Below are positions 38,836 through 55,663 of a stretch of 64,000 bases of DNA, piece by piece (positions within the stretch are counted from its first letter, which is position 1; each line of letters begins with the position of its first letter). The translations under genes and the position numbers were made by a program. Source of the stretch: a virus; the IMG/VR virus record IMGVR_UViG_3300046454_000807, positions 1 through 64,000 of that record; one strand, given 5' to 3'. The notes beneath the pieces were generated by a model. That model saw only the letters and a program-made list of their open reading frames with translations, searched no databases and had not been told where the DNA came from.

Positions 38836-38836
38836 C

Positions 38837-39106
38837 GTGGAGGACGAGCTGAAGCAGAAGGCACCGCCGGAGGTCGAGGAGTCGCCCGAGGAGATCGCTG
38901 AAGAGATCAAGGCCGTCATGGAGGAGGTCGAGCAGGAGGCGAAGGCTGCGGCCGAGCGCCGGCGCCCGCGATGGATGCGCGAGCGTCGCGAGCTGCACCG
39001 CCTCACCATCGTCGAGCGCAAGCAGCGCCGTGGACGGAACCAGGAGCGCCGGCGGCGACGGCTGGCCCGCGGTGGCCGGAGGCACGGAAGGCCGGTGGGG
39101 CGATGA
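38837..39106 (+). CDS. bipolar charged small protein
   Basis: An 89-residue protein starting at GTG 38837. The N-terminal half is an acidic helix (EVEESPEEIAEEIKAVMEEV). The C-terminal half is extremely Arg-rich (RRRPRWMRERRELHRL, then RGRNQERRRRRLARGG). It has no enzymatic motif; the tail could bind nucleic acid or acidic protein. Coupled to the next glycosyltransferase by ATGA. Confidence 0.5.
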   Translation: MEDELKQKAPPEVEESPEEIAEEIKAVMEEVEQEAKAAAERRRPRWMRERRELHRLTIVERKQRRGRNQERRRRRLARGGRRHGRPVGR

Positions 39107-39951
39107 AGACGGCTGTGGTGATGCCCGTCGGCCCTGGCCGCGGCGACAACGTGCGTCAGAGCATCGAATCGCTGGCCGCCATGACGACCCATCCTCACCT
39201 GCTGCTGGTCGTCTGCGACGGCGAGGTCGATCTTCCCACCGAGCTGGACGATATGCCCTTCCCCGCCGTTGCCCTACGCGCCCCGAAGCACGAGCCGGGG
39301 ATGGAGCAGCCACGCAACATCGGTGTGCGGAGACTGGAGGACACGGACATCGACACCGCCTGGTTCCTCGACTCCGACATCATCGTCGCGCCCGAGGCGC
39401 TGGAGCGCTTCGAAGAGGCGATGGACGGTCGCCCACGCATCCTGGTTGGACCCTACGACTGGTTGCCGCCGGGCACGCGCGAGCCGATGTCCGAGCTGAA
39501 AAACGACCCGCGCTGGGCATCCTTCGAGGAGCATGGCTGGAACGAGGTCATGGTCGAGAACCTCAGTGCTGGGCTCGCCTGCTTCTCCGGCAACCTGGTG
39601 TGGCCGATCGACGAGTTCGCCCGCATCGGCGGCTTCTGGAATGAGCTGCACCACGGCCGCTGCGAGGACGGCGAGCTGGGACTTCGAGCTGTCGCCTGCG
39701 GTGTTCCCATCTCGATGGTCGCCGGCGCCCGCGGCTGGCATCTGGCCCACGCCGTGGATTTCGAGTTGACACTGCAACGCAACGAACGCGACGTGCCGAT
39801 GTTGAACGAGCGTCACCCTTGGGTTGAGGGTGAGGGTTTGTTCGTGGTGGAGGAGGACGGCAAGCGCTTCAACGTCCGCTGCAAGTGCGGCTGGGAGGGC
39901 AACACGGCCGAGATATGGGCTCATCAACACGAGTGCGAGGAGGCGGTATGA
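39103..39951 (+). CDS. glycosyltransferase (GT-A) with C-terminal zinc-ribbon-like end
   Basis: A 282-residue protein starting at ATG 39103; upstream in-frame sequence is low-complexity. It has a GT-A core: KTAVVMPVGPGRGDNVRQSI, RNIGVRRLEDTDIDTAWFLD, then SDIIV giving a DxD (LDSD), and RCEDGELGLRAVACG with the ED. The C-terminal ~45 residues have RCKCGWEGNTAEIWAHQHEC, a CxC...HxHxxxC cluster. It probably transfers a sugar in the same pathway as its neighbours. Confidence 0.75.
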   Translation: MKTAVVMPVGPGRGDNVRQSIESLAAMTTHPHLLLVVCDGEVDLPTELDDMPFPAVALRAPKHEPGMEQPRNIGVRRLEDTDIDTAWFLDSDIIVAPEALERFEEAMDGRPRILVGPYDWLPPGTREPMSELKNDPRWASFEEHGWNEVMVENLSAGLACFSGNLVWPIDEFARIGGFWNELHHGRCEDGELGLRAVACGVPISMVAGARGWHLAHAVDFELTLQRNERDVPMLNERHPWVEGEGLFVVEEDGKRFNVRCKCGWEGNTAEIWAHQHECEEAV

Positions 39952-40991
39952 AGAAGGCAATCGTCACCGGATGCAATGGGCTGGTCGGCGCCGAGGCCGT
40001 AGCGCTGCTGTGTGAAAACGACTACGTGGTCTACGGCTTCGACAATGACATGCGTCGTTACTTCTTTGGCGCGGAGGCTTCTACTTTCTCCCGCGGGCTC
40101 GAATTGACCGAACGCTTCAAGACGTTCCTTGACTATGGAGTGGACGTTCGCAAGATCGAGGAGGTTATGAGCGTCTTCGAGCGGATCGACGGGCCGGTCG
40201 ATTTGATCGTCCACACCGCGGCCCAGCCTTCACACGACTGGGCCGCCAAGGAGCCGCGCACCGACTTCGATGTCAACGCGATCGGCACGCTCAACATGCT
40301 GGAGGTCATGCGCGCCCACTTCCCGGAGGCGACCTTTGCTCACATCTCCACGAGCAAGGTCTACGGTGACAATCCGAACCGGCTGGCGTTCAGCGACCGC
40401 GGCAAACGCATTGACGTGGGCGTCGAACATCCCTTCTACGAGGGCATCGACACGTCGATGTCGGTCGAGGGCTGTCTGCACAGCCTCTTCGGGGTGTCGA
40501 AGCTGGCTGGCGACCTCCTGGTGCAGGAGTATGGCCGCTACTTTGGGATGAACACTGTCTGCTTCCGGCCGGGCTGCGTGACGGGTCCCGGTCACGCTGG
40601 CGCCGAGCTTCACGGCTTCTTGTCCTACTTGGTCAAATGCGTCGTCAAGGGACTTCCGTACACCATCTTCGGCTACGAGGGCAAGCAGGTCCGCTGCAAC
40701 ATCTACGGTCGTGACCTCGCTGCTGCCTGCTTGGAGTTCCACTCGAACCCCAAGCCCGGCGCCGTCTACAACATCGGCGGTGGCCGGGAGAACGCGATCT
40801 CGATGATAGAGGCGATCGAGCTGGCGGAAAAGATCACCGGCAAGACCCTGACCACTCACTATGAGCCGAAAGCGCGGATCGGCGATCACATGTGGTGGAT
40901 CAGCTCGAACCGCGACTTTGAACGTGACTTCCCGCGGTGGGAGCAGTCGCGCACGGTGGACCAGATGATCGAGGAGATCGCGGCCACATGA
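39948..40991 (+). CDS. NAD-dependent sugar epimerase (CDP-paratose 2-epimerase-like)
   Basis: A 347-residue extended SDR enzyme. The Rossmann glycine motif is TGCNGLVGAEA near the N-terminus; HTAAQPSHDWAAKEP and ISTSKVYGDNPNRLAF follow. The catalytic YxxxK is FGVSK here (LHSLFGVSKLAGDLLVQEYG). Then comes CFRPGCVTGPGHAGAELHGF and GYEGKQVRCNIYGRDLAAAC. These stretches resemble epimerases acting on CDP- or other nucleotide sugars, some of which, as I recall, also carry Phe at that place. It would make the donor sugar for the glycosyltransferases around it. Confidence 0.8.
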   Translation: MKKAIVTGCNGLVGAEAVALLCENDYVVYGFDNDMRRYFFGAEASTFSRGLELTERFKTFLDYGVDVRKIEEVMSVFERIDGPVDLIVHTAAQPSHDWAAKEPRTDFDVNAIGTLNMLEVMRAHFPEATFAHISTSKVYGDNPNRLAFSDRGKRIDVGVEHPFYEGIDTSMSVEGCLHSLFGVSKLAGDLLVQEYGRYFGMNTVCFRPGCVTGPGHAGAELHGFLSYLVKCVVKGLPYTIFGYEGKQVRCNIYGRDLAAACLEFHSNPKPGAVYNIGGGRENAISMIEAIELAEKITGKTLTTHYEPKARIGDHMWWISSNRDFERDFPRWEQSRTVDQMIEEIAAT

Positions 40992-41770
40992 GGCTTCTCG
41001 TCTGCATACCAACGATCACCGGGCGCGAGGAGTTCCTGAAACGTGCTGTCTGGGCGTACCAGAAACGCACGCCTGGCGTTGAAGTCCACATCGAGGTCGT
41101 CTACAACGAGCCGACCTGTGGGCTGGGTTGGCAGAAGGCGGTCGAGCGAGGGCTATCGCGGCTCCAGCCGCCGCCGGAGTACATCCACTTCGGCAACGAC
41201 GACATCATGGTCGCCGAGGGCTGGTTCTTCCCGCTGGCGGAGGCCGCGTCGCAGGGTTACCTGCCGGGCTCGCGGATGGAGCCTGCCGGCTATCACCTTG
41301 GCGAAGAGCCAGCCGAAGCGATCTCGCCGTGGTGGGTGAAGCCGTCGGAGCGCAGCTACTTCTACGCTGACCTGCCCGAGAACCAGCCGAAGCATGACTG
41401 GGCACCCCTCGACCACAGTGCGCTGCCGTTCTGTTCGGTGGGGCAATGGCTCAAGATCGGCCGCTTCATCCCGATCCATTTCGGCACCGACAAGTGGTTC
41501 TACCACCGCGCTCGTGAGTGTGGCATGGAAGCCGTCGCCCGAATGGACTCGGTGATCTTCAACTATGCGACTCAGATCGGGCGCCAGAAGGGCGAGTGGA
41601 CTGAGACCGACATTATCGACTTCGACCTCAATCTTGCCTACCCGCAGTACCTCGCCGGTGGTCTGAATCCGGTCGAGCAGCATCCACTCCGGCTGACGCC
41701 CAGAGGGCTCGAACTGGCCCGGCAGTGGCGCAAGAACAACCTGCCACCGCCGTACCACTGGGAGGAATAG
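40988..41770 (+). CDS. glycosyltransferase (GT-A-like)
   Basis: A 260-residue protein from the ATGA junction. RLLVCIPTITGREEFLKRAV is the first strand; EYIHFGNDDIMVAEGWFFPL carries the metal-binding NDD; HFGTDKWFYHRARECGMEAV follows in the acceptor half. The family 2-like order is kept but sequence is more divergent than in its neighbours. It probably acts in the same glycan pathway. Confidence 0.68.
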   Translation: MRLLVCIPTITGREEFLKRAVWAYQKRTPGVEVHIEVVYNEPTCGLGWQKAVERGLSRLQPPPEYIHFGNDDIMVAEGWFFPLAEAASQGYLPGSRMEPAGYHLGEEPAEAISPWWVKPSERSYFYADLPENQPKHDWAPLDHSALPFCSVGQWLKIGRFIPIHFGTDKWFYHRARECGMEAVARMDSVIFNYATQIGRQKGEWTETDIIDFDLNLAYPQYLAGGLNPVEQHPLRLTPRGLELARQWRKNNLPPPYHWEE

Positions 41771-42549
41771 TGGACATCACCCTTTTGATCTCGACGTTCA
41801 ATCGCGCCGAGCTACTGGCCCACTCGCTGAAGCGGCTGACCGAACTGACGCCGCCCGCCGAGCTGATCGTCGTGGACGACGGAGGCACCGACAACACCGA
41901 GGAGGTCTGCCAGGCGTTCAGCTCCCTGCCGATCCGCTACATCTACAACCACAACCCCGAGTGGTCGATCTGCTCGATGGCCCGCAACATCGGGGTGAAA
42001 GAGGCGTCGAACGACTGGATCGTCACCGCCGAGCCCGAGCTGTTCTTCGTGACCGATGTGCTGGCCCAGTTCGCCGCCCTGGAGCCCCAGCATCCCAACG
42101 AGGTTATCTCCGCCGGCACGATCTACTTCCAGCCCGAGGGCGGCCCGCCGCCGAGCACGAACGTCGAGGGACTTGAGACGGCGGGCGACTATGTGCCACC
42201 GACGGGCACTGAGGAAGCGATCGGCTGGGTCGCTCCCTTCACTGCCCTCTACTCCCGGCCAGCCCTGCTTGATGTGGGCGGTTGGGATGAGGAGTTCCCT
42301 GGGGCATGGGGCTGGGACGACATCGACCTGCTCACGCGACTTCGGATCAAAGGTGTGAATCAACACATCGCCCTCGACGTGAAGGTCCTTCATCAGTGGC
42401 ATGGACCCAAGCACCGAGGCGACGTGGATTTCGTCAACGAGGGGTACTTCCGCGCCAAGAGCTTCGTCGCCGGCGGCGTGGAGTCACCCGACCTACCAGA
42501 CATCATCGCGAATAGGGGGCACGAGTGGGGCAAGATCAGAAGCCGATAG
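41770..42549 (+). CDS. glycosyltransferase family 2 (GT-A)
   Basis: A 259-residue protein starting at GTG 41770 with GGAGGAA upstream; the stop of the previous gene overlaps by one base. It has ITLLISTFNRAELLAHSLKR, ELIVVDDGGTDNTEEVCQAF (donor DD), MARNIGVKEASNDWIVTAEP and GGWDEEFPGAWGWDDIDLLT (acceptor region with W-D-D), all in GT2 order. Ends 25 bases inside the following methyltransferase gene. Confidence 0.78.
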   Translation: MDITLLISTFNRAELLAHSLKRLTELTPPAELIVVDDGGTDNTEEVCQAFSSLPIRYIYNHNPEWSICSMARNIGVKEASNDWIVTAEPELFFVTDVLAQFAALEPQHPNEVISAGTIYFQPEGGPPPSTNVEGLETAGDYVPPTGTEEAIGWVAPFTALYSRPALLDVGGWDEEFPGAWGWDDIDLLTRLRIKGVNQHIALDVKVLHQWHGPKHRGDVDFVNEGYFRAKSFVAGGVESPDLPDIIANRGHEWGKIRSR

Positions 42550-43184
42550 ACAGGATTGCGGAGGAGGCTAAGACCTGGTGCATCCCGGACGACGCTCGGC
42601 GCGAGGAGAAGGCGCAGCGCGAGCGCATCCGGCACCCGAAGCTCATCAAGGACCTCCTACTCGACCAGCTCGCCACGCACACGATGGACGTACTGGAGAT
42701 CGGTGGCGGCCCGATGCCGGTGACGGACCTGCTGCCGTTCTCGTCGCGGATCGTGGTCGATCCCTGCACTGACCAGTACCGCGACTACTTCCCCTGCAAC
42801 GACCACATCGCCGACACGATCGAGCACTTCTACACCGACGACCTGGAGGAGTGCTTCGACCTGGTGGTCTGCACCAATGCCCTCGACCACGTTCAGGAAG
42901 ACATGGTGCCGGCGGTCTTCGACGTGATCCGGCGAGTGCTGCGACCGGGTGGCTTCGCGGCGATTATGTGCGCTGAGAACAACGCTCTGACCAACCCCCA
43001 TCCCTGCCATGCGGTCAACCTCGACGCGGCGCGGGTCCACCGAGCCCTTGACCCCGAGTTCGAGACGGTATGGGAGCTGACCTACGCCCGCGACGGCTAC
43101 CGCTACGGCTGGGCCGAATACGAGGGCAAGATCGGCCAGCCAGCCTTCGCAATCCTCCTCCGCAAGGCGGTTGGGTATGCATAA
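42525..43184 (+). CDS. SAM-dependent methyltransferase (class I)
   Basis: A 219-residue protein from GTG 42525. Motif I is MDVLEIGGGPMPVTDLLPFS; YTDDLEECFDLVVCTNALDH and FDVIRRVLRPGGFAAIMCAE match the Methyltransf_11 core. Like the 37126 enzyme it probably methylates a sugar or small molecule. It could also be an O-methyltransferase for glycan capping; context supports but does not prove this. Confidence 0.72.
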   Translation: MGQDQKPIDRIAEEAKTWCIPDDARREEKAQRERIRHPKLIKDLLLDQLATHTMDVLEIGGGPMPVTDLLPFSSRIVVDPCTDQYRDYFPCNDHIADTIEHFYTDDLEECFDLVVCTNALDHVQEDMVPAVFDVIRRVLRPGGFAAIMCAENNALTNPHPCHAVNLDAARVHRALDPEFETVWELTYARDGYRYGWAEYEGKIGQPAFAILLRKAVGYA

Positions 43185-43899
43185 ACCCAGAATCCTCGAC
43201 CTGTTCTGTGGTGCTGGTGGAATCGCCAAGGGCTACCAACGTGCGGGCTTCCATGTGGTCGGAGTGGACATCGAACTGCAACCGAACTATTGCGGAGATG
43301 AGTTCTACCACGCTGATGCCCTGGCTATGACGCAGGACATACTGCGCAGTTGCTGGCATGAGAGTTCACAGAGGACCTCACTCAAAGGAATGCTTGACCG
43401 CTGTCTCGGGCACTTCCAGGCCATTCACGCTTCCCCTCCGTGTCAGGCGCACAGTGACCTCCAGAAACAGAACAAGCGAACTTATCCAGAGTTGATCGAG
43501 CCGACCAGGGAGCTACTTATCGCTTCCGAACTGCCCTATGTGATCGAGAACGTCGAGGGGGCGCCGCTGCTCGACCCGATCATGCTCTGCGGCACGATGT
43601 TCCCCGGTCTGCGGGTGCTGCGCCATCGACTCTTCGAGACCAACTTCCCGATCACAGCACCACAGCACCACAGCACCCAGCACCCGCTCGTTTTTACCCA
43701 CGACAAGCGGAAGGCTCATTACGGCAAGCTCGACCAGAACACATCCTTCGTTCAGGTCACTGGCGGTGGAAACTGCACGATCGCCAACGCTCGGGACGCA
43801 ATGGGGATCGACTGGATGAACAAGCCGGAGATCAACGAGGCCGTCCCCCCAGCCTATGGAGAATACGTCGGGCGGGCTCTACGGGCGCATCTTGGCTGA
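43177..43899 (+). CDS. DNA (cytosine-5) methyltransferase
   Basis: A 240-residue enzyme, short compared with bacterial ones but usual for phages. Motif I RILDLFCGAGGIAKGYQRAG; motif IV IHASPPCQAHSDLQKQNKRT with the catalytic Cys; motif VI LPYVIENVEGAPLLDP; motif VIII-like LRHRLFETNFPI; and a final AVPPAYGEYVGRAL. It methylates cytosine in DNA, protecting phage DNA from restriction. The target recognition domain is small. It lies within the glycan cassette and overlaps the GT-B gene by 44 bases. Confidence 0.88.
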   Translation: MHKPRILDLFCGAGGIAKGYQRAGFHVVGVDIELQPNYCGDEFYHADALAMTQDILRSCWHESSQRTSLKGMLDRCLGHFQAIHASPPCQAHSDLQKQNKRTYPELIEPTRELLIASELPYVIENVEGAPLLDPIMLCGTMFPGLRVLRHRLFETNFPITAPQHHSTQHPLVFTHDKRKAHYGKLDQNTSFVQVTGGGNCTIANARDAMGIDWMNKPEINEAVPPAYGEYVGRALRAHLG

Positions 43900-44941
43900 C
43901 CTCGATATCAAGAAAGACGTGTGCATGGTCGGCCTCGGCACGTCGGCACCGTGTTACTACCGCGTCATGCTGCCGGCGATGGAGCTGGGCTGCGATTGGA
44001 CCGGCGTTGCTGGTTACCCGCCGCGGTTCCACTGGCTCACCGGCAGCGTGCGCGGCGAGTCACAGCTTCCCGACCTGATCGACAACTACAAAATCGTCGT
44101 CCTCCAACAGCCACACGGTGAGAGCTGGGAGAAGATGATCGAGACGATGCAAGAACATGGCAAGAAGGTCGTCTTCGAGGTAGACGATTACTTGCACGGA
44201 ATCCAGAAGCGTGGTGACCATCAGTTCGCCGAGCACTACGACGATCGCGCGCTGCTGCTGTTCGAGATGTGCATGAGGAAGTGCGATGCAATGATCGTCT
44301 CCACGCAGTACCTCTTCGACAAGTACAAAAAGTTCAACCCGAACATCTACCTCTGTCGCAACGGGATCGACCTTAACCGCTACAAGCTCACCCGGCCGAA
44401 GCGCAACACGGTCAACATCGGCTGGGCCGGCGCTACCGGGCACGCCCAGGCGATGCTGCCGTGGCTGCATCAGGTGCAGGCTGTCATGAACGAGAAGCCG
44501 GAGACCTGCTTCATCTCGATCGGACTGCCCTTCGCGAAGTCGATCGCACCCTACGTCGGGGAAGATCGCTGCATCTCGATTCCCTGGACCTCGATCGAGA
44601 CCTATCCGTCGGCGATGTCCATGTTCGACATCGCGCTGGCGCCTAGTGGTGGTGGTGGCTGGTACCGCGGCAAGTCGGACCTGCGCTGGCTGGAGGCATC
44701 GGCCTTGGGGATCGCGACGATCGCGCGGCCGAGCACTTACCCCGAAATCGAGCACGGTGTGACCGGCTTCCACGCGACGAGCCCGCAGGACATGGTGGTC
44801 GCGCTGATGGAGCTGATCGGAGACAAAGGGTTGCGAGAGGAGGTCGGGCGCGCAGCCAAAGCCTTCGTCACCGATCACCGCTCGATGCCGATCATGGCAC
44901 AGAGCTGGCAGGCCGCGCTCGAAACTATCCATGCCCAATAA
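43856..44941 (+). CDS. glycosyltransferase GT-B fold (family 4-like)
   Basis: A 361-residue protein; ATG 43856 is taken, but TTG 43892 would remove most of the 44-base overlap. The C-terminal half has NTVNIGWAGATGHAQAMLPW, then SMFDIALAPSGGGGWYRGKS, then LRWLEASALGIATIARPSTY and YPEIEHGVTGFHATSPQDM, the typical donor-binding half of GT4 enzymes with the E...G...G(T/F) end. N-terminal Rossmann-like part (HGKKVVFEVDDYLHGIQ) binds the acceptor. The last visible enzyme of the cassette. Confidence 0.78.
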   Translation: MENTSGGLYGRILADLDIKKDVCMVGLGTSAPCYYRVMLPAMELGCDWTGVAGYPPRFHWLTGSVRGESQLPDLIDNYKIVVLQQPHGESWEKMIETMQEHGKKVVFEVDDYLHGIQKRGDHQFAEHYDDRALLLFEMCMRKCDAMIVSTQYLFDKYKKFNPNIYLCRNGIDLNRYKLTRPKRNTVNIGWAGATGHAQAMLPWLHQVQAVMNEKPETCFISIGLPFAKSIAPYVGEDRCISIPWTSIETYPSAMSMFDIALAPSGGGGWYRGKSDLRWLEASALGIATIARPSTYPEIEHGVTGFHATSPQDMVVALMELIGDKGLREEVGRAAKAFVTDHRSMPIMAQSWQAALETIHAQ

Positions 44942-47088: not shown

Positions 47089-47709
47089 ATGGACGCAAAG
47101 ACGGCTGAAGACCCGAAGCTACTTGCCCACTACGAGGGGTTGGTTCGCAAGACCGCCGCGCGGGTCGCGCCGAAGGTGGAGGAAGACTACGACGACATCT
47201 GTCAATTCCTCCGCTACAAGGTGTGGAAAGCGTTGCAGGCGTTCACTGCGAAACGGGTTAAGCCCACTGCGAACATGACGCTTACAGAAAAGCGTGACAG
47301 ATTCGTCTTCGCGTGCCTCACTAACGCCGTCAAGGATGTGTTGAAGAAGAAGCGACACTATCTTCTGTTCATAGAGGACCTGACCGCAGACACCGGCTAC
47401 AGCGATTCGGCTCACGAGGGCTGGGGGTCGAACCTAGCTGCCAAGCAGAAGTTCGAAGGTCGCTACCTCTCCGAGGATGCCGACTTCGAGAAGCTGTTCG
47501 AGGAAGACACCGTTCTCATCCCCAGCACCCTCGACTCCGTAGAGCGCCGCGTGGCGCTCTTGCTCTATATGGACTTCACGCCGACCGACATCGGCAGGCA
47601 GATCAAATGCCAGCGCAAAGACGTGGAAGAGATCGTCGGCTCGATCCAGGAGAAGATGGCCGACTGGCAGCCGAGCGCCGCGGACGAGCGCGTTCCCCTC
47701 GCCGCCTAG
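47089..47709 (+). CDS. phage-encoded RNA polymerase sigma factor
   Basis: A 206-residue protein, ECF size. Residues ~10-95 have a sigma region 2 layout: LAHYEGLVRKTAARVAPKVE, then DYDDICQFLRYKVWKALQAF and VFACLTNAVKDVLKKKRH (the DNA-melting helix with basic end). Residues ~145-190 have a region 4 helix-turn-helix: STLDSVERRVALLLYMDFTP, then TDIGRQIKCQRKDVEEIVGS. It would direct RNA polymerase to phage promoters, by inference the TCGTAnATTA set. The gene ends head-to-head with the leftward operon (overlapping stops). Confidence 0.72.
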   Translation: MDAKTAEDPKLLAHYEGLVRKTAARVAPKVEEDYDDICQFLRYKVWKALQAFTAKRVKPTANMTLTEKRDRFVFACLTNAVKDVLKKKRHYLLFIEDLTADTGYSDSAHEGWGSNLAAKQKFEGRYLSEDADFEKLFEEDTVLIPSTLDSVERRVALLLYMDFTPTDIGRQIKCQRKDVEEIVGSIQEKMADWQPSAADERVPLAA

Positions 47710-48308
47710 TCTTTCTCATCGCCAGGCAGGTACAGGCCCGCCGGGTTGCGGTCGGTCAGCATCCCGATGATGTCGATCGGCACCAGCGGCCCGATCGTGT
47801 CGTTGATCGCGGGCATGATCTCCGCCGCTGGCCAGCCCTCTACAGGCGCGTTGGCGAGTCGCGCCCAACCCTGCCGGTCGAGCGGCCCGAGCAGCTCCAG
47901 GAAGCGCAGGGCTTGTTCTGAGAAGGGCTCTCGCGGCTCCAGCTTCATGATCTCCTCGCCGCCGCTGACGGGCCTTCCCCACTCCCAGATCGAGCCGGCG
48001 CCGTGGGGCACATGCGACGACTTTCCCATCCGGCGCCCGACCCAGATGCCCTGCACGGCGTCGTCGTAGCTCCAGAGCGTCGGGTCCACGATCGTCAGCT
48101 TGGGGTCGTAGCAGTCATCGCCGAGCACCACCCACGAGTGCTGGCCGGTGACGCCCTCCGTGAAACCTCGTGCGACTCGTGCGACCGGGAAGATTTCGGC
48201 GTTGACGATCGCGATGCTGGCGCCGTGGCAGCGCCGCGCCCACTGAGACAGTGGCTCCAGCTCGTCCATGACGGCGGCGCGCTGGGCGGAGCTGAGTTCG
48301 GGCTTCAT
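47706..48308 (-). CDS. hypothetical protein, conserved phage type
   Basis: A 200-residue leftward protein, last gene of the leftward operon; its stop overlaps the stop of the sigma gene. It begins with a helix (SSAQRAAVMDELEPLSQWAR) and contains CHGASIAIVNAEIFP, HSWVVLGDDCYDPKLTIVDP and TLWSYDDAVQGIWVG, with a Cys-His-Asp order (C28, H57, D73-type) that recalls papain/NlpC-fold proteins. That reading is speculative. I do not recognise a family with certainty. Confidence 0.6.
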   Translation of the reverse strand: MKPELSSAQRAAVMDELEPLSQWARRCHGASIAIVNAEIFPVARVARGFTEGVTGQHSWVVLGDDCYDPKLTIVDPTLWSYDDAVQGIWVGRRMGKSSHVPHGAGSIWEWGRPVSGGEEIMKLEPREPFSEQALRFLELLGPLDRQGWARLANAPVEGWPAAEIMPAINDTIGPLVPIDIIGMLTDRNPAGLYLPGDEKD

Positions 48309-48529
48309 AGCAGTGTCTCCTGGTCGTGGAGGAGGTCATAGCGCTGACGCAGGCCGGCCGGGGTGATCCAGTCCTTACGGGCGCGCTGGTCGTCGGGGTA
48401 AAAGCGTTGAATGCGAACCATTCCTTCTCGGTTGATCGAGACGATGTTGATCTGGCCGGTGCTCTTAAGGCGATTGGCGTGCTTCGAGAGCCACACCTGC
48501 CCCTCTCGGATTTCGGGGATCACGTTCAT
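48305..48529 (-). CDS. small hypothetical protein
   Basis: Leftward from ATG 48529, 74 residues, overlapping the next gene by 4 bases. It has IPEIREGQVWLSKHANRLKS, then VSINREGMVRIQRFY and TPAGLRQRYDLLHDQE; this IREGQVW ... TP..LR.RY..L pattern is shared by small proteins of many actinophages. Function unknown. Confidence 0.65.
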   Translation of the reverse strand: MNVIPEIREGQVWLSKHANRLKSTGQINIVSINREGMVRIQRFYPDDQRARKDWITPAGLRQRYDLLHDQETLL

Positions 48530-48554
48530 AAGTAGTACCGCCCCAGGGGGACGT

Positions 48555-48818
48555 TCATCCGCTGTTGACGCGCCGACGATTGGCGGCACGTAGATCACTG
48601 TCGTCCTCGAAGGGGTCCTCGGGCAGATCAAACAGCGACAGTTCCTCTCGCTTGCGAACCCAGAACTCGCGGAACTGTCGCTTCGCCTCGGTGATTTCCA
48701 GCTCGTCGAAGCCGCGTTGGGAAGCGCTGTTGATCGACAGCCGGGCGTAGCGCATCGCCGTTACCGCACTGTTCCGGTCGAGCACAGGGAATAAGCCGGA
48801 TTTGATCGGTTCGCTCAT
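48555..48818 (-). CDS. small hypothetical protein
   Basis: An 87-residue leftward protein, ATG at 48818 inside the integrase stop (TGATG-type junction). Mainly helical and charged (SAVTAMRYARLSINSASQRG, EAKRQFREFWVRKREELSL) with an acidic end. No family recognised. As the gene immediately downstream of the integrase it might be an accessory of excision, but no DNA-binding motif is evident. Confidence 0.55.
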   Translation of the reverse strand: MSEPIKSGLFPVLDRNSAVTAMRYARLSINSASQRGFDELEITEAKRQFREFWVRKREELSLFDLPEDPFEDDSDLRAANRRRVNSG

Positions 48819-49798
48819 CCGATGTCCTCCCCGAACTCCTCCTCATGGCGCTCCACCTGCTTCTGCACGTCGCGCCGCACCAGCTCAACGTAGCCCATCG
48901 TCTCCTGGATGTTCGCGTGCCCGAGCAGCTTCGAGAGGACCTCGATGTCCATGCCGGCGCGGAGCCACGTCGTCGCGCACGTGTGACGCAGGCGGTGCCA
49001 CTGCCAGTCGCCTACGTCGAGCAGGTAGACCTCGAAGCGGGGGAAGCGCATCGGCTTCAGCAGCGCGCCCCCACTGGTAGTGAGCGCGAGCCACGGTCGA
49101 TCGTGACCAGGGCTCAGTTCGGTGCGGAACTCAATCCACGCCTTCACGGCCTCGCGGGCGCGCTTGGTGTAGGGCACTTCGCGGAACTTGCCACCCTTAC
49201 CTTCGCGCACGACGATGTAGGCGTTGTCGTAGTGCATATCCTCCAGGTCGAGGTCGAAAATCTCTTGGCGCCGCAGCCCACATTCGACTGCGATCCTCGT
49301 CATCGCGGTGATCTGAAGGTGGTTCGCGTGTGCTTCGATCCGGGTGAATCGAGACGTGCCGCGGAAGTAGCGTTTGCGCCACTTTCCACCCGAATCGAGT
49401 GGAAAATGCTTGGCGATCGCCGGCCAGAGCCTCTTGATTTCCTTTGGTTTGTAGGGACGTGGGAGGCGCCGCGGCGTCGCGGGGAAGTCGGCTCGCCGAA
49501 TCGCCATCAGGTCCTCGCCGGTGTAGAGCCCGGCATCGAATGCCCAGCCGAAGAACGCGCGGACCTGCATCCCCTTCTTCTTGACGGTGCTACCCGACAA
49601 GCCGTCGGTCAGATGAAGAAGCCATGCTCGGTATTGCTCGGGCGTGCATTCGATCGCATCATCGACGCCGGCGTGTGCTGCCAGCTCCTCCACTGCCTGC
49701 CGCTGTTCACGACCGCGGCGCTCGGTGATGCCTCGGTAGTTCTGGTACTCAACCCAGAAGCGGCCGAGCGTCGTCGGGCTTTCCTCCACTACCGTCAT
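48815..49798 (-). CDS. int: tyrosine recombinase (integrase)
   Basis: A 327-residue leftward enzyme from ATG 49798, which overlaps the previous stop by ATGA (an in-frame ATG 18 bases upstream is less likely). Catalytic set: R176 (CGLRRQEIFDL), K201/K204 (GKGGK), H268-x-x-R271 (QWHRLRHTCATTWL), H294 (LLGHANIQETMGY) and the nucleophile Y303. It has an N-terminal SAM-like core-binding domain. It recombines attP with attB. It implies a temperate or recently temperate life style. No attP was identified nearby. Confidence 0.9.
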   Translation of the reverse strand: MTVVEESPTTLGRFWVEYQNYRGITERRGREQRQAVEELAAHAGVDDAIECTPEQYRAWLLHLTDGLSGSTVKKKGMQVRAFFGWAFDAGLYTGEDLMAIRRADFPATPRRLPRPYKPKEIKRLWPAIAKHFPLDSGGKWRKRYFRGTSRFTRIEAHANHLQITAMTRIAVECGLRRQEIFDLDLEDMHYDNAYIVVREGKGGKFREVPYTKRAREAVKAWIEFRTELSPGHDRPWLALTTSGGALLKPMRFPRFEVYLLDVGDWQWHRLRHTCATTWLRAGMDIEVLSKLLGHANIQETMGYVELVRRDVQKQVERHEEEFGEDIG

Positions 49799-49980
49799 AG
49801 CTTTTCGATCTCCCACTCATAAACCGTGGTGCATTCATAGTCATCCATGAACACGAGGTAGATCGGGCCGTCCACCGGATCGTCGATTGCGACCTCGACC
49901 TGGCCCGTCTTACAGGGCCAGCCGTTGACAGGGTAGGCGTCCTCTCGAACAACGAAGTCATCTCCAGCCTTGAGCTTCAT
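49795..49980 (-). CDS. small hypothetical protein
   Basis: A 61-residue leftward protein from ATG 49980, overlapping the integrase start. It reads as a compact beta protein (FVVREDAYPVNGWPCKTGQV, then IYLVFMDDYECTTVYEWEIE) with two cysteines. No family recognised. Confidence 0.6.
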   Translation of the reverse strand: MKLKAGDDFVVREDAYPVNGWPCKTGQVEVAIDDPVDGPIYLVFMDDYECTTVYEWEIEKL

Positions 49981-50309
49981 AGGTGGACTTCTTCCAACTC
50001 GGAGTAGGACGCGATCAGCTCGGGCCAGTCCTCACCCGGTTCCATTGACTCTCGCGGGATCGAGCCCTGGGCCAGATGGATGCGGACGCCGAGATGGTAG
50101 TACCCAACACTGGCGAGCCAGCCAGCGCAGGGCATCGTCTCGTCCTCGGTGCTCTTGTGGCAGGCGAACATCGGGGCTCCAAGTGGAGCCTCGGCACCGG
50201 GCGTGCCGGTCGTATTGCGAAGTGAGATGTAGCGCTCGGGCGGGAACTGACCGGGCGGCGTGTCGCGTCGCCACGGGCACTCCTCACAGGGTCGCTTGCG
50301 GCAGTTCAC
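49977..50309 (-). CDS. DUF6283-like cysteine-rich protein
   Basis: A 110-residue leftward protein starting at GTG 50309. CRKRPCEECPWRRDTPPGQF near the N-terminus, then FACHKSTEDETMPCAGWLAS: CxxCPWR followed by CH..........PCaGWL is the signature of a phage/actinobacterial family (DUF6283 as I recall). Four cysteines and a His may bind metal. Function not established. Packed by 4-base overlaps with both neighbours. Confidence 0.75.
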   Translation of the reverse strand: MNCRKRPCEECPWRRDTPPGQFPPERYISLRNTTGTPGAEAPLGAPMFACHKSTEDETMPCAGWLASVGYYHLGVRIHLAQGSIPRESMEPGEDWPELIASYSELEEVHL

Positions 50310-50704
50310 TCGTCATCCTGCGCTCTCACCCATTCGGCCACCTTCTCCTCGGAGAGCGTCCAGCCAGCAGAGGGGAGACCAGCGATGACCTGGAACTTGA
50401 AGTCCTGGTAGCCGACGGGCAGCTTAAAGCCGTCGCCGCCACACTCCCAACAGGAAGTCATGTGACCGGGTTCGTCTTCGAGTTGGCCGCTGCGTTCGCA
50501 TTCAGGGCAGTCGGCCTCCTGGCCAAAGAAGTCGATCAGTAGGGAGCGTGCGAGGTCCGAAGGCCCGGACCCACCATAGCCCCAGTTGAAGCCATCCGGT
50601 GAGTGACGCACATGATGGGGTAGCGGTCGAGTGGCGCCGTCCTCTTCGACGAGAACCGTAGGACCGCCGAGACCGGAGCGGCCGATATAGGTCTTCACGA
50701 CCAT
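50306..50704 (-). CDS. DUF6166-like protein with zinc-ribbon insertion
   Basis: A 132-residue leftward protein. The ends match the DUF6166 pattern: KTYIGRSGLGGPTVLVEEDG, HHVRHSPDGFNWGYGGSGPS, DLARSLLIDFFG, and later QDFKFQVIAGLPSAGWTLSE. Between them (about residues 65-95) is an insertion with CPECERSGQLE and SCWECGGDG, two CxxC pairs of DnaJ-ribbon type. The core family has unknown function and no such ribbon in its usual form as I recall, so the insertion is notable. Confidence 0.7.
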   Translation of the reverse strand: MVVKTYIGRSGLGGPTVLVEEDGATRPLPHHVRHSPDGFNWGYGGSGPSDLARSLLIDFFGQEADCPECERSGQLEDEPGHMTSCWECGGDGFKLPVGYQDFKFQVIAGLPSAGWTLSEEKVAEWVRAQDDE

Positions 50705-50898
50705 GCCTGACCGTGGAAGGTTTCGCGACAGAGCACACGGCCCTCGTCGTCCACGCTGTAGACGATCAGGTTCCGATGCTCCGGTCCACTGGAAAGCTCG
50801 AAGTCGAAGTTCCCGGCCTCCTCATCCTTGGGAACTTCCTCGTCGATCCAGTCGGCGAGTCGCTGAGCCTCATCGGGGTCTAGGCGTGCGAGTTTCAT
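50695..50898 (-). CDS. small hypothetical protein
   Basis: A 67-residue leftward acidic protein (DEAQRLADWIDEEVPKDEEA, then RNLIVYSVDDEGRVLCRETF) with helix-strand layout. It overlaps the DUF6166-like gene by 10 bases. No family recognised. Confidence 0.58.
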   Translation of the reverse strand: MKLARLDPDEAQRLADWIDEEVPKDEEAGNFDFELSSGPEHRNLIVYSVDDEGRVLCRETFHGQAWS

Positions 50899-51158
50899 AG
50901 GTGAGTGTTTTCCTGGCCGAACCGGCGCAGCGCATCCCTGACATCGGACTCGTCGGGAATCCCGACCTCCAGCTCCTCCGACTCCACGTCGTAGACTCGG
51001 CCGACTCGCTCTCGCATCGCTGTCTCGGCCGCGAGGAATATGTCATCGTCGTTGCCGGTCATGGCTCCGGCGAAAGCCTCGGCCTGCTCGGCGCGAATCT
51101 CGACCTCCACGTTGAAGATGATGCTGCCGCGCCTGGTCTTGGAGATGAACTGTCCCAT
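50895..51158 (-). CDS. small hypothetical protein
   Basis: An 87-residue leftward protein from ATG 51158, five bases after the stop of the upstream gene; longer in-frame extension overlaps that gene and is not needed. It has a beta N-terminus (SIIFNVEVEIRAEQAEAFAG) and an acidic helical C-terminus (DVESEELEVGIPDESDVRDA). Unknown function. Confidence 0.6.
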   Translation of the reverse strand: MGQFISKTRRGSIIFNVEVEIRAEQAEAFAGAMTGNDDDIFLAAETAMRERVGRVYDVESEELEVGIPDESDVRDALRRFGQENTHL

Positions 51159-51163
51159 ATGTG

Positions 51164-51379
51164 TTACACCGTGGGAGGGGGACACCCGGCGAGTTTGGCT
51201 GCCTTACTACACCGCTCGCAGGTCTGGAAGATGCAGCGGCTCGGGGGGTAGGACACGGCGCGACCTCTGAGCCCGCATAGCGTCGGCGAGATCATTCCCG
51301 CAGGTGTCTTGTAGTCGCCCAGGTCAGCGCGTAGATGGGCTCGGCGCCCGGTCTCGGTCACTATGAGCTGTCGAATCAT
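51164..51379 (-). CDS. small hypothetical protein with cysteine pair
   Basis: A 71-residue leftward protein. Basic N-terminus (RQLIVTETGRRAHLRADLGD), a CGLRG segment, then CIFQTCERCSKAAKLAGC, a set of four Cys that may form a metal site near the C-terminus. It overlaps the RuvB-like stop by 4 bases (ATGA). Unknown function. Confidence 0.58.
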   Translation of the reverse strand: MIRQLIVTETGRRAHLRADLGDYKTPAGMISPTLCGLRGRAVSYPPSRCIFQTCERCSKAAKLAGCPPPTV

Positions 51380-52485
51380 GCGCTCACCAACTCCTTTGCT
51401 CGCTCGATCCCGGCGTCGGTGAGAATCCGACCCTGGCCGATCTGGATGTAGCCCTGCTCGATCAAGTAGGGCTCGACGCGAAGTGAGATCGCCTTGCTGT
51501 CACGGCTCTTGCCGATGGCGGTGGCGATGGTGTTGACCGAAGCTCGATAAACAGTGCCTTTGCTCGTCTCGTGGGCGCCGCGCTGGTAGAGGAAGGTGAG
51601 CATCCGCTGCATATCGCGGGTCAAGCCATCCTCAGTGACGCCGTTGAGGTCGAATAGCACTTCCCGCGCGACCTCGCCGTCTATAACGTCATCGGCGAGC
51701 ATCGCTGCGTTCTTGACGTAGTTGTTCACCGTCCTCGGGACGCCGCGAGAGGCGGCCGCGAATAGCTCGGCTGCGGTCGGCACGACGACGACGCCCAGTC
51801 GCTCTCCGTTCCACTTCGCCATCTGTTCGAGCGCAGCCTTCGAGTAGGGCTCAAGCCGCGGTCGGATCGGGAAGCGTGCGAGGAACGGGTCGGGCAGCAT
51901 CCCCTCATCCGTGGTGGTGCCGACGATGGTGATCTCGGGGAAGTCGAGCAGGCCGGCGCCGGCAGGCATCACCCGGTCCTCCATGATCGCGTAGAGAACC
52001 TCGGGCTGGGTAGCTGCTGACTTGCCGCGTCGCTCCATAATCGCCTGCTGGTGAATCTCCTCGATGCGAAGGATGTCTCGATCCCGCATCGTCAGTCGGA
52101 GTTCTAGCAGGGTGTCGCGCGAGACAGGCGCCTCGACCTCAAACACGTCGGCGTCGAGTTCGTGCGCGATGACGTGGCTGAACGTGCTCTTGCCGGTGCC
52201 GGCGCCGCCAACGAGCAGGATGTGATCGAGCGGCACGTCGCGCCGCTTGCAGCTCGCCACGACGCGCTCCATCATCGCCACGGCGTGCTCCTGGCCGATG
52301 ACCTCGGCGAAGGTCTCCGGGCGCAGCGCGTTCTTCGAGCGGTCGCCGGTGGACACCGGACGGGGTGGCGCCTCGCTCAGATCGCCGGCCGGTCGCTCGG
52401 TCGCTTTGAGGTCGGCGAGCGCGCGCAGCATCGCCGATCGGTTCTGCGAGATCGGCGCCGCTTCCACATGTGGTTCGGTTCTCAC
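51376..52485 (-). CDS. RuvB-like AAA+ ATPase
   Basis: A 369-residue leftward protein, GTG 52485 (GTGA overlap) chosen because further upstream sequence is Arg-rich shadow. It follows RuvB through its length: ALRPETFAEVIGQEHAVAMM, Walker A LVGGAGTGKSTFSHVI (94-101), Walker B-like ILRIEEIHQQA, sensor-like ITIVGTTTDEGM, arginine-finger region DPFLARFPIRPRLEPYS, and a winged-helix end (VEPYLIEQGYIQIGQGR). RuvB drives branch migration with RuvA. Walker B has Glu where RuvB has Asp. No ruvA or ruvC is in the window, so a loader or other role is possible. Confidence 0.78.
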   Translation of the reverse strand: MRTEPHVEAAPISQNRSAMLRALADLKATERPAGDLSEAPPRPVSTGDRSKNALRPETFAEVIGQEHAVAMMERVVASCKRRDVPLDHILLVGGAGTGKSTFSHVIAHELDADVFEVEAPVSRDTLLELRLTMRDRDILRIEEIHQQAIMERRGKSAATQPEVLYAIMEDRVMPAGAGLLDFPEITIVGTTTDEGMLPDPFLARFPIRPRLEPYSKAALEQMAKWNGERLGVVVVPTAAELFAAASRGVPRTVNNYVKNAAMLADDVIDGEVAREVLFDLNGVTEDGLTRDMQRMLTFLYQRGAHETSKGTVYRASVNTIATAIGKSRDSKAISLRVEPYLIEQGYIQIGQGRILTDAGIERAKELVSA

Positions 52486-52931
52486 TGGTAGCGCGCCCGA
52501 AATAGTCGAGGGTGGTTCATCGTCCACAGCATCGCCGCGTCGCATTCGCTCGGGATGAACGTCACCGCGGGGTACATGATGTTGTGAGGATCGGAACTGT
52601 GACCGTAACCCTCCAAGTGTCCGACCTCGTGACGCATGGCGGCACAGGCGCGCTCGAACATGTTCGGCGTCGAGAGTTCGGCAACGATGTAAACGTGGCA
52701 AGACAGCACTTCACCCGGCGCCGGGATAGTGGCTTCGCCGATCCATTCGCCGCCGTTGAGTTCGGTGTCGCCGACGATCCGCTTCTCGATGGACGAGCAG
52801 CCGGGCGGCGTCGTGCCCCAGTGCCGAAGCGCGAGTGCGTAGGCGTAGTTAAGCGAAGGTGTGAATGGCGCCGCGTGGGCTACCGGCGCCGCGAGCAGCA
52901 TTACCACTGCGATCAATCCGAGACGCTTCAC
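52482..52931 (-). CDS. secreted metzincin-like zinc metalloprotease
   Basis: A 149-residue leftward protein from GTG 52931. A clear signal peptide (KRLGLIAVVMLLAAPVAHA, cleavage after about residue 20) precedes a small domain with MRHEVGHLEGYGH, the HExxHxxGxxH zinc site (101-111), and SDPHNIMYP with the Met-turn methionine M119. This combination defines metzincins such as matrixin/M10 or archaemetzincin-like proteases. Cysteines at 45, 78, 96 and 130 could form disulfides. It would be exported from the infected cell or lysogen and cut extracellular protein. Confidence 0.8.
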   Translation of the reverse strand: MKRLGLIAVVMLLAAPVAHAAPFTPSLNYAYALALRHWGTTPPGCSSIEKRIVGDTELNGGEWIGEATIPAPGEVLSCHVYIVAELSTPNMFERACAAMRHEVGHLEGYGHSSDPHNIMYPAVTFIPSECDAAMLWTMNHPRLFRARYQ

Positions 52932-53344
52932 TCGATCCCCAGCTCAAGCTCGACGTACCAAGGGCTCAGCTCCTCGCGGTCGCCCATGCCGTGCTTCTCC
53001 TTGCGCCAGCGCTTCGCCTCGGCGGTGTTGCGCAGGAAGTCAGTGACTCCGTTGTACTCGCCGATGATCGCGCGAGGGTCGATCTTGAACATCCCCGCGA
53101 TCCAGTCACCCCACTCGACCCACGTTGCGGCCCGGTCGTAGTTGCCAGCGCCGCCATACTGGCCGCTGTTGCGGGCGAAGCTACGTTTGTTGCCGTGCTT
53201 GTCGCTGCCGTGCTCGGCCGATAGACCGACCTCGAATGCGTGGTCTCGCTTTCGCGAGCCATGAGCCGTCACTTCGGCAAGCGTGCCGTTCGGCGCCAGC
53301 TTGCGCAGGTCGGCGGCGGTAAGTTTGTCGGTATGGATTCGCAT
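52928..53344 (-). CDS. hypothetical protein, conserved phage type
   Basis: A 138-residue leftward protein from ATG 53344 with a strong AGGAGG site 5 bases before it. HTDKLTAADLRKLAPNGTLA and HGSRKRDHAFEVGLSAEHGS, then RAATWVEWGDWIAGMFKIDP and RNTAEAKRWRKEKHG recur in actinophage genomes as I recall. It is basic in the middle and could bind nucleic acid. Function unknown. Confidence 0.65.
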   Translation of the reverse strand: MRIHTDKLTAADLRKLAPNGTLAEVTAHGSRKRDHAFEVGLSAEHGSDKHGNKRSFARNSGQYGGAGNYDRAATWVEWGDWIAGMFKIDPRAIIGEYNGVTDFLRNTAEAKRWRKEKHGMGDREELSPWYVELELGIE

Positions 53345-53360
53345 AGAGCCTCCTAAGTGA

Positions 53361-53582
53361 CTATTCGTGTGCCTCTAGGTATTCGCTTAGTTCATCTAGT
53401 GACTGACTATCGTCATAACTCATTGCGTAAGTAGATGCTTCCCTCGCGAGCTTGCCGACGCTCTCCTGAATTGTTCCTGTGATACCAAACAGAACCACAT
53501 CGTCCCAGTCCGGGTCATTAGGCCACTTAAGCCTCTTGGGGACCTCAACCGCGATCTCTCGTGCTGCGCTTTCGGTAAGCAT
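53361..53582 (-). CDS. small hypothetical protein
   Basis: A 73-residue leftward protein from ATG 53582. Helical and acidic (LTESAAREIAVEVPKRLKWP, IQESVGKLAREASTYAMSYD). It overlaps the start of the preceding gene by one base (TGATG-type). No family recognised. Confidence 0.58.
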   Translation of the reverse strand: MLTESAAREIAVEVPKRLKWPNDPDWDDVVLFGITGTIQESVGKLAREASTYAMSYDDSQSLDELSEYLEAHE

Positions 53583-54355
53583 CAGACGCCCTCGTAGGGC
53601 CGGTCGATAGGCTCGATGACGCTGCCGGCACAAGCGCCGAAGATCGCACCCATGACGTTTATGGGTTCGCGCGCCCACTCCGCTTTGTCCCAGTAGCCGA
53701 TCTCGCCGCCGTCGGGTGCGACGACTCGAATATAGTCGCCGCCGAAGGTCGGGCAGCCAACTGGGCCGGCGTTCGTGCGAAGCGTAATGCCGGTGTGAAA
53801 GGTCAAGACTGCCTCCTCGCCGTACTCGTCATCCTCGATAATTCTGGCGCCGTGGGAAAGATCGCGCGTCTGTTCATTTGCTGCGCTAAGGATGGACTGG
53901 CAAAGCTCGGCGCGGAAGCGGTCGATCTCGCCGACAACCTCGAACGCGAAGCCGAGAAAGCGGTCTCGCAGCTCCGCATCTTCTTCGTCGGGCTCGATCA
54001 GTCCACTGACGGAAAGACGCTGCGTTCCGTCTACGGCCAGCCAACCCCCGCTGCGACCTGCCTGGTAGACGTGGAAACCGTGTGGCGCGGATGCCAGCGT
54101 TGCCCATCGCCAGTAAGAATCACGCGCGACCTCGTAAAGCTCGCCCACGCGCGTCTCTCCGATCTTGTCGGCGGCCGCGTTTACGTCGGTTGGCCAGTTG
54201 TGACGAATGGTGCCATCCTTCACGTCCACGGACAGCATTCCGTCCCTTTCGTTCACCCGCACCGAACCGCCGTTGCCGTGACGAGTGATGATGAGATCGC
54301 GGCCGAGAAAGTAGCTGTTCGTGTTCGTGCTGAAAATGTAGCTTTGCATGGTCAT
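53582..54355 (-). CDS. hypothetical protein
   Basis: A 257-residue leftward protein from ATG 54355, which overlaps the previous stop (TGATG). It is beta-rich at the N-terminus (SYIFSTNTNSYFLGRDLIIT) with a central helix (EEDAELRDRFLGFAFEVVGE) and a beta C-terminal domain (AVLTFHTGITLRTNAGPVGC). No family recognised. Confidence 0.6.
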   Translation of the reverse strand: MTMQSYIFSTNTNSYFLGRDLIITRHGNGGSVRVNERDGMLSVDVKDGTIRHNWPTDVNAAADKIGETRVGELYEVARDSYWRWATLASAPHGFHVYQAGRSGGWLAVDGTQRLSVSGLIEPDEEDAELRDRFLGFAFEVVGEIDRFRAELCQSILSAANEQTRDLSHGARIIEDDEYGEEAVLTFHTGITLRTNAGPVGCPTFGGDYIRVVAPDGGEIGYWDKAEWAREPINVMGAIFGACAGSVIEPIDRPYEGV

Positions 54356-54585
54356 CACTGCATTCCTGCTGCCATTTGAAGGCTCTCGGCGTGAGCTGCA
54401 AGGGTTTCGTCGTCGCGGCCTTCGGATGCGCGTGGCCATTCGATGACTGCGGTCGTAACGCGCGAGAAGAATGCGCCGGGACCGTACTCCTGGTCTAGCG
54501 TCGCGCCGAGTTGGAGCGCCTTGGTGTGGGCCTCCTCCTCACTGCCGGCATCGACAAGAATCATCGCTGGGATTTCGTAGCGCAT
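54355..54585 (-). CDS. small hypothetical protein, first gene of the leftward operon
   Basis: A 76-residue leftward protein from ATG 54585 with GGAGGA 8 bases upstream. It has MRYEIPAMILVDAGSEEEAH, an alpha/beta small fold resembling the N-terminus of ferredoxin-like regulators, and a helical end (ETLAAHAESLQMAAG). First gene of the leftward operon running to 47706. Function unknown. Confidence 0.6.
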   Translation of the reverse strand: MRYEIPAMILVDAGSEEEAHTKALQLGATLDQEYGPGAFFSRVTTAVIEWPRASEGRDDETLAAHAESLQMAAGMQ

Positions 54586-54883
54586 TGGGGCAATCCTCCG
54601 ATCCTGTTCGGCTCTATCAAGCCAAGTGTTGCATGTTCCGATAGAAGTGACTAAGGCTCCGGCTCCGAGACGGCGAGACCGCAACCCCGGCGCGCGTGGT
54701 CCTGCCGACGAGAAATCCTCTCGCCGTCGCAGACAACGCGGCCGGGGGAGATGTTGCGGCTCGCATCGAACACGGATAGGAGTTAGGAACGCGGAGCGGA
54801 AATGCCTGTATGTCGTGCGCCGCGTCCATTTGTGGATTCGCAGGGTGAACCGTGGGGGGGGGACGGGAAGTGTCGAGCAATAC
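54586..54883. other. divergent intergenic region (left part)
   Basis: About 300 bases between the leftward operon start and the first early promoter hold no convincing gene. The leftward side has a strong GGAGGA ribosome binding site but no promoter I can name. A run of nine G residues at 54854-54862 and the arm GGGAAGTGTC (54865-54874) precede the rightward promoter. Confidence 0.4.
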
Positions 54884-54916
54884 TCATACATATGTCCAAA
54901 TCGCTTGACACTTCCC
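54865..54916. repeat. 10-bp inverted repeat flanking the early promoter element
   Basis: GGGAAGTGTC (54865-54874) and GACACTTCCC (54907-54916) are exact inverted repeats, 32 bases apart. The right arm overlaps the TTGACA -35 box, and the 14-base shared element lies between the arms. Good candidate for a repressor operator. Confidence 0.5.
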
Positions 54917-54933
54917 AAACAATAGACGATCAT
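54884..54933 (+). promoter_or_regulatory. early promoter 1 (TCATACATATGTCC - TTGACA - GATCAT)
   Basis: TCATACATATGTCC (54884-54897), 7 bases, TTGACA (54905-54910), 17-base spacer, GATCAT (54928-54933). The -35 is a perfect sigma70 consensus at optimal spacing. The same layout occurs at 57235. The ATG at 54932 lies in the -10, so the first possible start in the transcript is 54974. Confidence 0.65.
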
Positions 54934-54973
54934 GCTGGAAGCAGTGACAGTGAAACACGGAAAGGGACACGAA

Positions 54974-55663
54974 ATGCCAGCACTACGTAAGTCAGCCGTC
55001 AAGGATGATGCCGCGCAGGCAGCGCAGGATGCGGCGAGTCACGGCTACAACGGCCGCGATGGCGCCGGCGCGAACCTCCTAAGAGAGTGTGCGCGTGCTG
55101 TGAGGATCGGGGCGCGCAACGTCGAGCGCACCTACAGTGTGCCGATGCTCGGAGCTGACGAGCGAGCCGAATACGCTTCCGAACTGGCGGCATGGCTGAT
55201 CGGCCAGAATGGCGGCACGGTGCCCGGCGCCGACGATCTGACCACCAGCTACATAGTGCGGCGCGCGGTCGGGCTCATCCTCAACGATCGGCAGCGGCGC
55301 GGCTTCGACCTTACCCAGCCGGCAGAGCACGAGACGGGCGCAGACGCTCGACTCGATGGCCTGCTGAGCGTGCCGGCGGAGATCGCCGCCGCCGCGTCGG
55401 CGCTCGCTGCGACTGAGACGGGCCGGCGCGCATTCATCGCTGCGCTCGTGCCGGCTTCGCGTGAGGAATGGGCAGACTTCTACGGCTACGCGAGTCCGAG
55501 TGTGTGGCACCGAACCGCAAAGCGTGGACGTGCGGAGCTGCGCAGCATCGGAGAGGACGCACTGTGCCAAGCGTTGCGACGTGCGGAGACAGATGCGACG
55601 GATCATCTCGATATGGAAGCGTCTCGCGTGCGCGAGATCGTGGACGGAATGGAGGAATCATGA
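54974..55663 (+). CDS. sigma-like or DNA-binding protein (early gene)
   Basis: A 229-residue protein; ATG 54974 is used because it is downstream of the promoter and has AAAGGG upstream. It has helical stretches LLRECARAVRIGARNVERTY, RAEYASELAAWLIGQ and VRRAVGLILNDRQRRG, recalling sigma region 2, then REEWADFYGYASPSVWHRTA with KRGRAELR as a helix-turn-helix like region 4. The similarity is structural and weak. As first gene behind a strong promoter it may be a regulator of early or middle transcription. Confidence 0.5.
   Translation: MPALRKSAVKDDAAQAAQDAASHGYNGRDGAGANLLRECARAVRIGARNVERTYSVPMLGADERAEYASELAAWLIGQNGGTVPGADDLTTSYIVRRAVGLILNDRQRRGFDLTQPAEHETGADARLDGLLSVPAEIAAAASALAATETGRRAFIAALVPASREEWADFYGYASPSVWHRTAKRGRAELRSIGEDALCQALRRAETDATDHLDMEASRVREIVDGMEES

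Follow-up and report, generated by a model that had tools for sequence, protein, structure and literature searches.

The window, a stretch of 64,000 bases (bases 1-64000 of the 78,574-base record of an uncultured virus), codes for a small protein with an export signal that belongs to a compact four-cysteine metzincin family, which is not listed as a family of its own by Pfam, PHROGs or NCBIfam. Members of this family are found both in phages and in the chromosomes of one actinobacterial order. Sequence comparisons and structure prediction together support the protein being an exported version of the metzincin fold, and we tentatively propose that it functions as an accessory protease directed at the envelope of the infected cell.

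Sequence and predicted fold of the window protein

The gene (52482..52931, minus strand) has a GTG start and, by the ORF list and its translation, codes for 149 residues. The product begins with a Sec-type signal peptide (residues 1-20; 52872..52931, minus strand) comprising KR, a hydrophobic core and a predicted cleavage site between AHA and APFTP (VKRLGLIAVVMLLAAPVAHA followed by APFTP), an assignment that draws on the sequence and on the hydrophobicity of the viral members; no lipobox is seen in the signal peptide of the window protein. The predicted zinc-binding catalytic motif HEVGHLEGYGH (residues 101-111; 52599..52631, minus strand) and the Met-turn IMYP (residues 118-121; 52569..52580, minus strand) lie further downstream, with Met119 positioned 8 residues past His111. 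The translation thus confirms the signal peptide, HExxHxxGxxH motif and IMYP Met-turn that the first-pass annotation had reported within the 149 residues.

To assess conservation we used an alignment of 46 members, 26 viral and 20 from host chromosomes. The catalytic motif is intact in 25 of the 26 viral and 17 of the 20 host members, the catalytic residues being 96-98% conserved overall, and Met119 is found in 96% of the members, including all those with an intact motif. Four cysteines surrounding the motif are equally characteristic, namely Cys45 (52797..52799), Cys78 (52698..52700), Cys96 (52644..52646) and Cys130 (52542..52544), all on the minus strand and present respectively in 100%, 98%, 96% and 93% of the members. 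Together with the signal peptide they make up the pattern of the family, which the window protein displays in full. The complete set of positions conserved at 93-100% comprises W38, C45, C78, C96, H101, E102, G104, H105, G108, H111, M119 and C130.

An AlphaFold model of the window protein derived with 25 family sequences has a mean pLDDT of 91.7 and a pTM of 0.83. It features helix A (residues 25-38), three strands (45-53, 65-67 and 76-83), helix B (89-106) and helix C (128-139), and thus combines the HExxHxxGxxH/D motif and Met-turn with the order of elements of the metzincin clan, i.e., helix A, sheet, helix B and a C-terminal helix. In a fold search against the PDB, the matches listed were all catalytic domains of matrix metalloproteinases (MMPs; best E=2.3e-4, probability 1.0), with modest global TM-scores of 0.4-0.5. 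Structure prediction and subfamily assignment, which had been put forward as checks on the first-pass annotation, hence support a metzincin fold with MMPs as the nearest solved structures, though not membership in the matrixins proper.

The likeness to the matrixins (MEROPS M10A, PF00413) is centered on the active site, where the HExGHxxGxxHSxDPxxIMYP stretch matches almost letter for letter. Accordingly, the PF00413 profile aligns with residues 99-125 of the window protein only (E=4.9e-5, 23.7 bits against a gathering cut-off of 24) and with the active-site stretch only of 24 of 25 family members at E<=0.01 (best 5.3e-9); the best PDB sequence match, matrilysin, is confined to the same stretch. 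The window protein has no match among the PHROGs profiles. Animal MMPs possess a pro-domain with a cysteine switch, whereas the window protein has neither: its signal peptide would be cleaved about 5 residues before helix A, leaving no room for a pro-peptide. Likewise, there is no conserved histidine outside the catalytic motif among the 46 members and therefore no counterpart of the MMP structural zinc site. Matrixins have a five-stranded twisted sheet, whereas DSSP assigns three strands to the predicted model, and the four family-specific cysteines further set the window family apart. Taking sequence and model together, we file the protein as a probable metzincin-fold family of its own and not as a matrixin.

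Among other metzincins, snapalysin (MEROPS M7) of Streptomyces is one of the smallest secreted representatives, with a C-terminal part consisting of a single helix (PMC3890501). The window protein resembles it in its small size, predicted secretion and connection with actinobacteria, and its modelled C-terminal part is likewise cut down to one helix; however, the third ligand of snapalysin is Asp in place of His111, and no match to the snapalysin Pfam family was obtained in our scans. Archaemetzincins (M54) are of a cytosolic type with extra cysteines for a second zinc. Their profiles show a weak likeness near the active site (PF07998, E=0.2; NF033823, E=0.001), with scores far below the respective cut-offs (12.1 vs 24.4 bits and 19 vs 145 bits). 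The best fold match in BFVD is a peptidase M10 domain protein of 162 residues from an uncultured Caudovirales phage (A0A6J5P205, E=2.8e-4), which shows 17% identity and a low TM-score to the window protein and may belong to a different family; entomopoxvirus metalloproteases are also among the BFVD matches.

Viral and chromosomal members of the family

A single-protein search of IMG/VR and 84,980 genomes returned no match, as the automatically derived peptide patterns were too strict, and tblastn with the window protein found no relative in 50,697 INPHARED records. In contrast, a degenerate pattern for HExGHxxGxxHxxDxxxxMYP succeeded, recovering 52 contigs out of the 2.9 million in IMG/VR, which represent several types of metzincin. 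The earlier statement that secreted metalloproteases are rare in phages is thus correct in part only. The 52 contigs comprise ordinary longer matrixins on the one hand and, on the other, about 20 small exported proteins of a single type that displays, in order, APFTPxLxxAYxxAxxxW, a cysteine, another cysteine, the motif and a further cysteine. An alignment search gave 22 viral loci, and we estimate the family at about 25 IMG/VR viruses; full-length relatives, roughly 30-57% identical to the window protein, occur on more than 20 viral contigs. Since most of the viral set was found through the active-site motif, it is skewed towards intact copies. The unbiased sub-sample consists of 11 relatives detected with the N-terminal half, a search blind to the active site, in all of which HExxHxxGxxH is intact (one of the loci being new), and of a further copy, that of phage G001, found by synteny (see below).

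The family genes are under purifying selection: dN/dS ranges from 0.12 to 0.51 for pairs with unsaturated dS, more distant pairs being saturated at silent sites. A tight connection with the upstream gene is also widespread, with an RTGA overlap in nine of ten other relatives and, in the tenth, an upstream stop 5 bases away. That the window ORF is a chance occurrence or an annotation artefact, as might be suspected from its GTG start and its length of only 149 codons, is refuted by the more than 20 full-length homologues, the selection on them, the syntenic orthologues and the confident fold, and can be set aside.

The idea that the family is confined to viruses proved wrong. Although the first alignment, when run against the 84,980 genomes, yielded only active-site matches to ordinary matrixins, whole-genome profile searches uncovered full-length members in one of 396 genomes sampled across the phylum of Rubrobacter, and in 27 of 232 genomes (E<=1e-9) of the order to which that one genome belongs. 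Hence, the family is enriched in this actinobacterial order, the two counts having been obtained with the same profile and threshold on sets in which each species is represented by a single genome and MAGs are numerous. We considered whether the host copies might be prophages; this was ruled out for the ten contexts that were read, which have ordinary chromosomal neighbors such as genes of the ribosomal protein S2, DXP reductoisomerase and succinyl-CoA ligase type, as well as thioredoxin-reductase-type/pyridine nucleotide-disulphide reductase, pilin-type, AMP-ligase and acyl-CoA enzyme/enoyl-CoA hydratase genes. The motif is damaged in three of the 20 host members, which show HNVGH (L182), REVGH (L199) and the loss of the third His (L202). 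The replacement of the catalytic HE by HN or RE can be seen at L194 10646-11293 and near L199 7901-8621, both on the plus strand.

In a phylogenetic tree the viral and host members interleave, with supported branches forcing at least two changes between them. As phages and the chromosomes of the order share the family, the phages have probably acquired it from their hosts or trade it with them. The family suggests a probable host for the window virus within this metzincin-bearing order. The terminase of the window virus finds its best match, at only 32% identity, in an uncultured mangrove-soil phage and has no match in the genomes of the order; the integrase has one 39% match, in a 1 Mb contig that shares no other genes with the virus.

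Gene neighborhood and sister phages

The metzincin gene overlaps both of its neighbors by 4 bases, as GTGA on the upstream side and GTGA at the start of the downstream gene. The upstream gene (52928..53344, minus strand) codes for a 138-residue protein of PHROG 18547, a group of unknown function, and the downstream gene (51376..52485, minus strand) for a RuvB-like AAA+ ATPase with a RuvB C-terminal domain (RuvB_N, 2e-24; RuvB_C, 9e-6). Six small overlapping genes, including those of DUF6166 and DUF6283 proteins, follow (49795..51379, minus strand) and lead to a tyrosine integrase (48815..49816, minus strand; PF00589, E=9e-26; PHROG 1 integrase), the last recognizable large gene of the chain. 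The minus-strand ORFs are connected by small overlaps without a break from 53344 down to 48815, and given these overlaps the metzincin gene is likely to be co-transcribed down to the integrase. The leftward operon with the integrase described in the first-pass annotation is thereby corroborated by the co-oriented, overlapping ORFs and by the PF00589 match.

Sister phages were reached via the terminase and the RuvB-like protein. In L161 (78.9 kb) the metzincin occupies the syntenic place between a homologue of the 138-residue gene and the RuvB-like gene; it is 57% identical to the window protein and retains an intact HEVGHLTGHVH. G001 (71 kb) has a syntenic homologue (L160 7976-8362, minus strand) with the signal peptide, helix A, the strands and the four cysteines, in which NVFALLNNDWDYHAVSMP takes the place of the stretch from the first His to the Met-turn and contains no set of zinc ligands. 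In three of the alignments the G001 protein bears a one-residue error at the start of the signal peptide (MASKILL where the DNA gives VLRASKILL), which leaves the mature part unaffected. The window, L161 and G001 proteins form one supported group in the tree. The metzincin is missing from L162 (86 kb), in which the RuvB-like gene is present. Thus, with a zinc-dead copy in G001 and none in L162, the metzincin gene is accessory, catalytic function has disappeared on at least one occasion, and the activity is not essential to this group of phages. The G001 protein may be a pseudoprotease or the product of a decaying gene, and as its fold model is poor (pLDDT 67) decay and reuse are indistinguishable. 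Independently of the metzincin, the RuvB-like ATPase is 65-77% identical in the three sister phages, always lies within the integrase operon and possibly serves replication or recombination.

The linkage of metzincin and integrase holds in the window phage and two of its sisters. In the closest other family members that have integrases, the two genes are about 10 kb or more apart, and some distant members adjoin lysis genes instead. Consequently, the expression in lysogens and the lysogenic conversion that the first-pass annotation had derived from the operon do not follow from it. Phage integrases are usually made upon infection. Among close relatives (L055-L063), the metzincin gene ends an early-type run of small genes.

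Four distant viral members, in contrast to the window metzincin and its closest relatives, lie near genes for peptidoglycan hydrolases. Amidase_2 is close to the metzincin in L067 and L068, which are related, so that three lineages show such a neighborhood. L075 has an SLT-M23 gene upstream of the metzincin and a small membrane-type ORF with an NlpC/P60 gene downstream, and in L076 a small membrane-type ORF and a CHAP gene follow it. The order metzincin, small membrane-type (holin-like) ORF and peptidoglycan hydrolase recurs in L075 (9959-10995) and L076 (9704-11106, both plus strand), viruses that are otherwise different.

Possible roles of the exported protein

We tentatively favor, by analogy with Listeria Mtz, an accessory exported protease that would trim proteins in the envelope or on the surface of the infected cell. 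Mtz itself is a phage-derived, secreted metzincin, encoded as an mtz-tim pair that is often downstream of the holin-lysin genes in prophages; along with its lipoprotein partner it alters cell shape and eases lysis, an effect dependent on the catalytic activity of Mtz (PMC8235301). Compared by description, Mtz and the window protein have in common a Sec signal peptide, HExxHxxGxxH/D, a Met-turn and the status of a phage accessory gene; proximity to lysis genes is frequent for Mtz and is seen in some members of the window family. The two differ in that Mtz is always paired with the TIMP-like tim, whereas none is seen beside the window metzincin, both neighbors of which lack a signal peptide (L067 does have an exported ORF next door), and in the host phylum of Mtz, which is Bacillota. 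In the envelope-trimming model, the window gene would give rise to a small, disulfide-stabilized zinc endopeptidase of the metzincin fold with a mature size of about 14 kDa. This would be exported by the Sec machinery of the infected cell, be active on arrival given that it has no pro-peptide, and cleave a single exported or surface protein or a few of them, thereby weakening or remodeling the envelope. Such action might go with lysis in some family members, and in the window phage the protein would be made with an early-type operon. Against this model stand the position of the window copy and its closest relatives away from lysis genes, the zinc-dead copy of G001 and the missing gene of L162, the lack of an exported partner seen next door, and the modest TM-scores to MMPs.

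Lysogenic conversion, in which the phage would carry a host-type secreted protease as cargo to the advantage of the lysogen, for example through nutrition, surface change or competition, and with no part in the phage cycle, is possible but not favored. In host chromosomes the family is found as a secreted gene standing on its own, and a phage copy could therefore simply add to the host function; the tyrosine integrases of the window phage and many of its relatives, and the presence or absence of the metzincin among sister phages, also fit an accessory cargo gene. However, the gene is translationally coupled inside a phage chain with the RuvB-like ATPase and the integrase and apparently does not stand under its own promoter. 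A simple scan of 47500-55200 for E. coli-type promoters found no promoter-like site on the minus strand, and no repressor gene was found adjoining the metzincin gene, both of which are weak evidence in the same direction; in other phages the contexts are of the early type or related to lysis.

It is unlikely that the exported fold is mainly a binding module or decoy, directed for example at a protease, inhibitor or receptor of the host, with catalysis being optional. The G001 protein, which keeps parts of the fold and the four cysteines but has a shorter stretch lacking zinc ligands in place of HEVGHLEGYGHSSDPHNIMYP, and the three host homologues with damaged motifs would agree with such a function, whereas the near-universal integrity of the motif in viral members, extending to every copy found blind to it, speaks against it; moreover, G001 may simply be decaying, as its poor model suggests. 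Somewhat less probable again is superinfection exclusion, whereby the protease would strip off or mask the receptor protein on infected cells or lysogens. Secreted metzincins naturally act on surface proteins, and this role would be in keeping with export of the protein, its small size and an expression alongside early or integration genes; against it, no receptor or host surface target is known, and it is not separable here from the envelope-trimming model.

We also consider, as an improbable scenario, a contest over the secreted minimal metzincin of the hosts, in which active phage versions would cut and zinc-dead copies would act as decoys or inhibitors. If true, this would be a bacterial counterpart of pseudoprotease antagonism, with phages carrying the metzincin of their hosts and, repeatedly, dead versions of it. 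Returning to the envelope-trimming protease, secreted proteases of phages have seldom been described, Mtz being the only worked example that we found in the open literature; a search for work on phages of the actinobacterial order and on matrixins in prophages found nothing specific. A small, pro-peptide-free enzyme common to phages and to the chromosomes of this understudied order thus offers a compact test case for exported phage proteases, and the sister set, active in the window phage and L161 and dead in G001 as judged from the motif, allows the need for catalysis to be tested directly.

Other genes of the virus include a 248-residue ORF with SHELLELLGDP (L002 8213-8959, i.e., record positions 72213-72959, plus strand), a possible second metalloprotease-like protein that has no Pfam or PHROG match. 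The window further contains a series of genes for glycosyltransferases, nucleotide-sugar epimerases and methyltransferases (36325-44941, plus strand), which is uncommon in phages of such a size, and the sole tRNA gene found in the record is a tRNA-Leu (taa) at L002 1310-1392 (plus strand).
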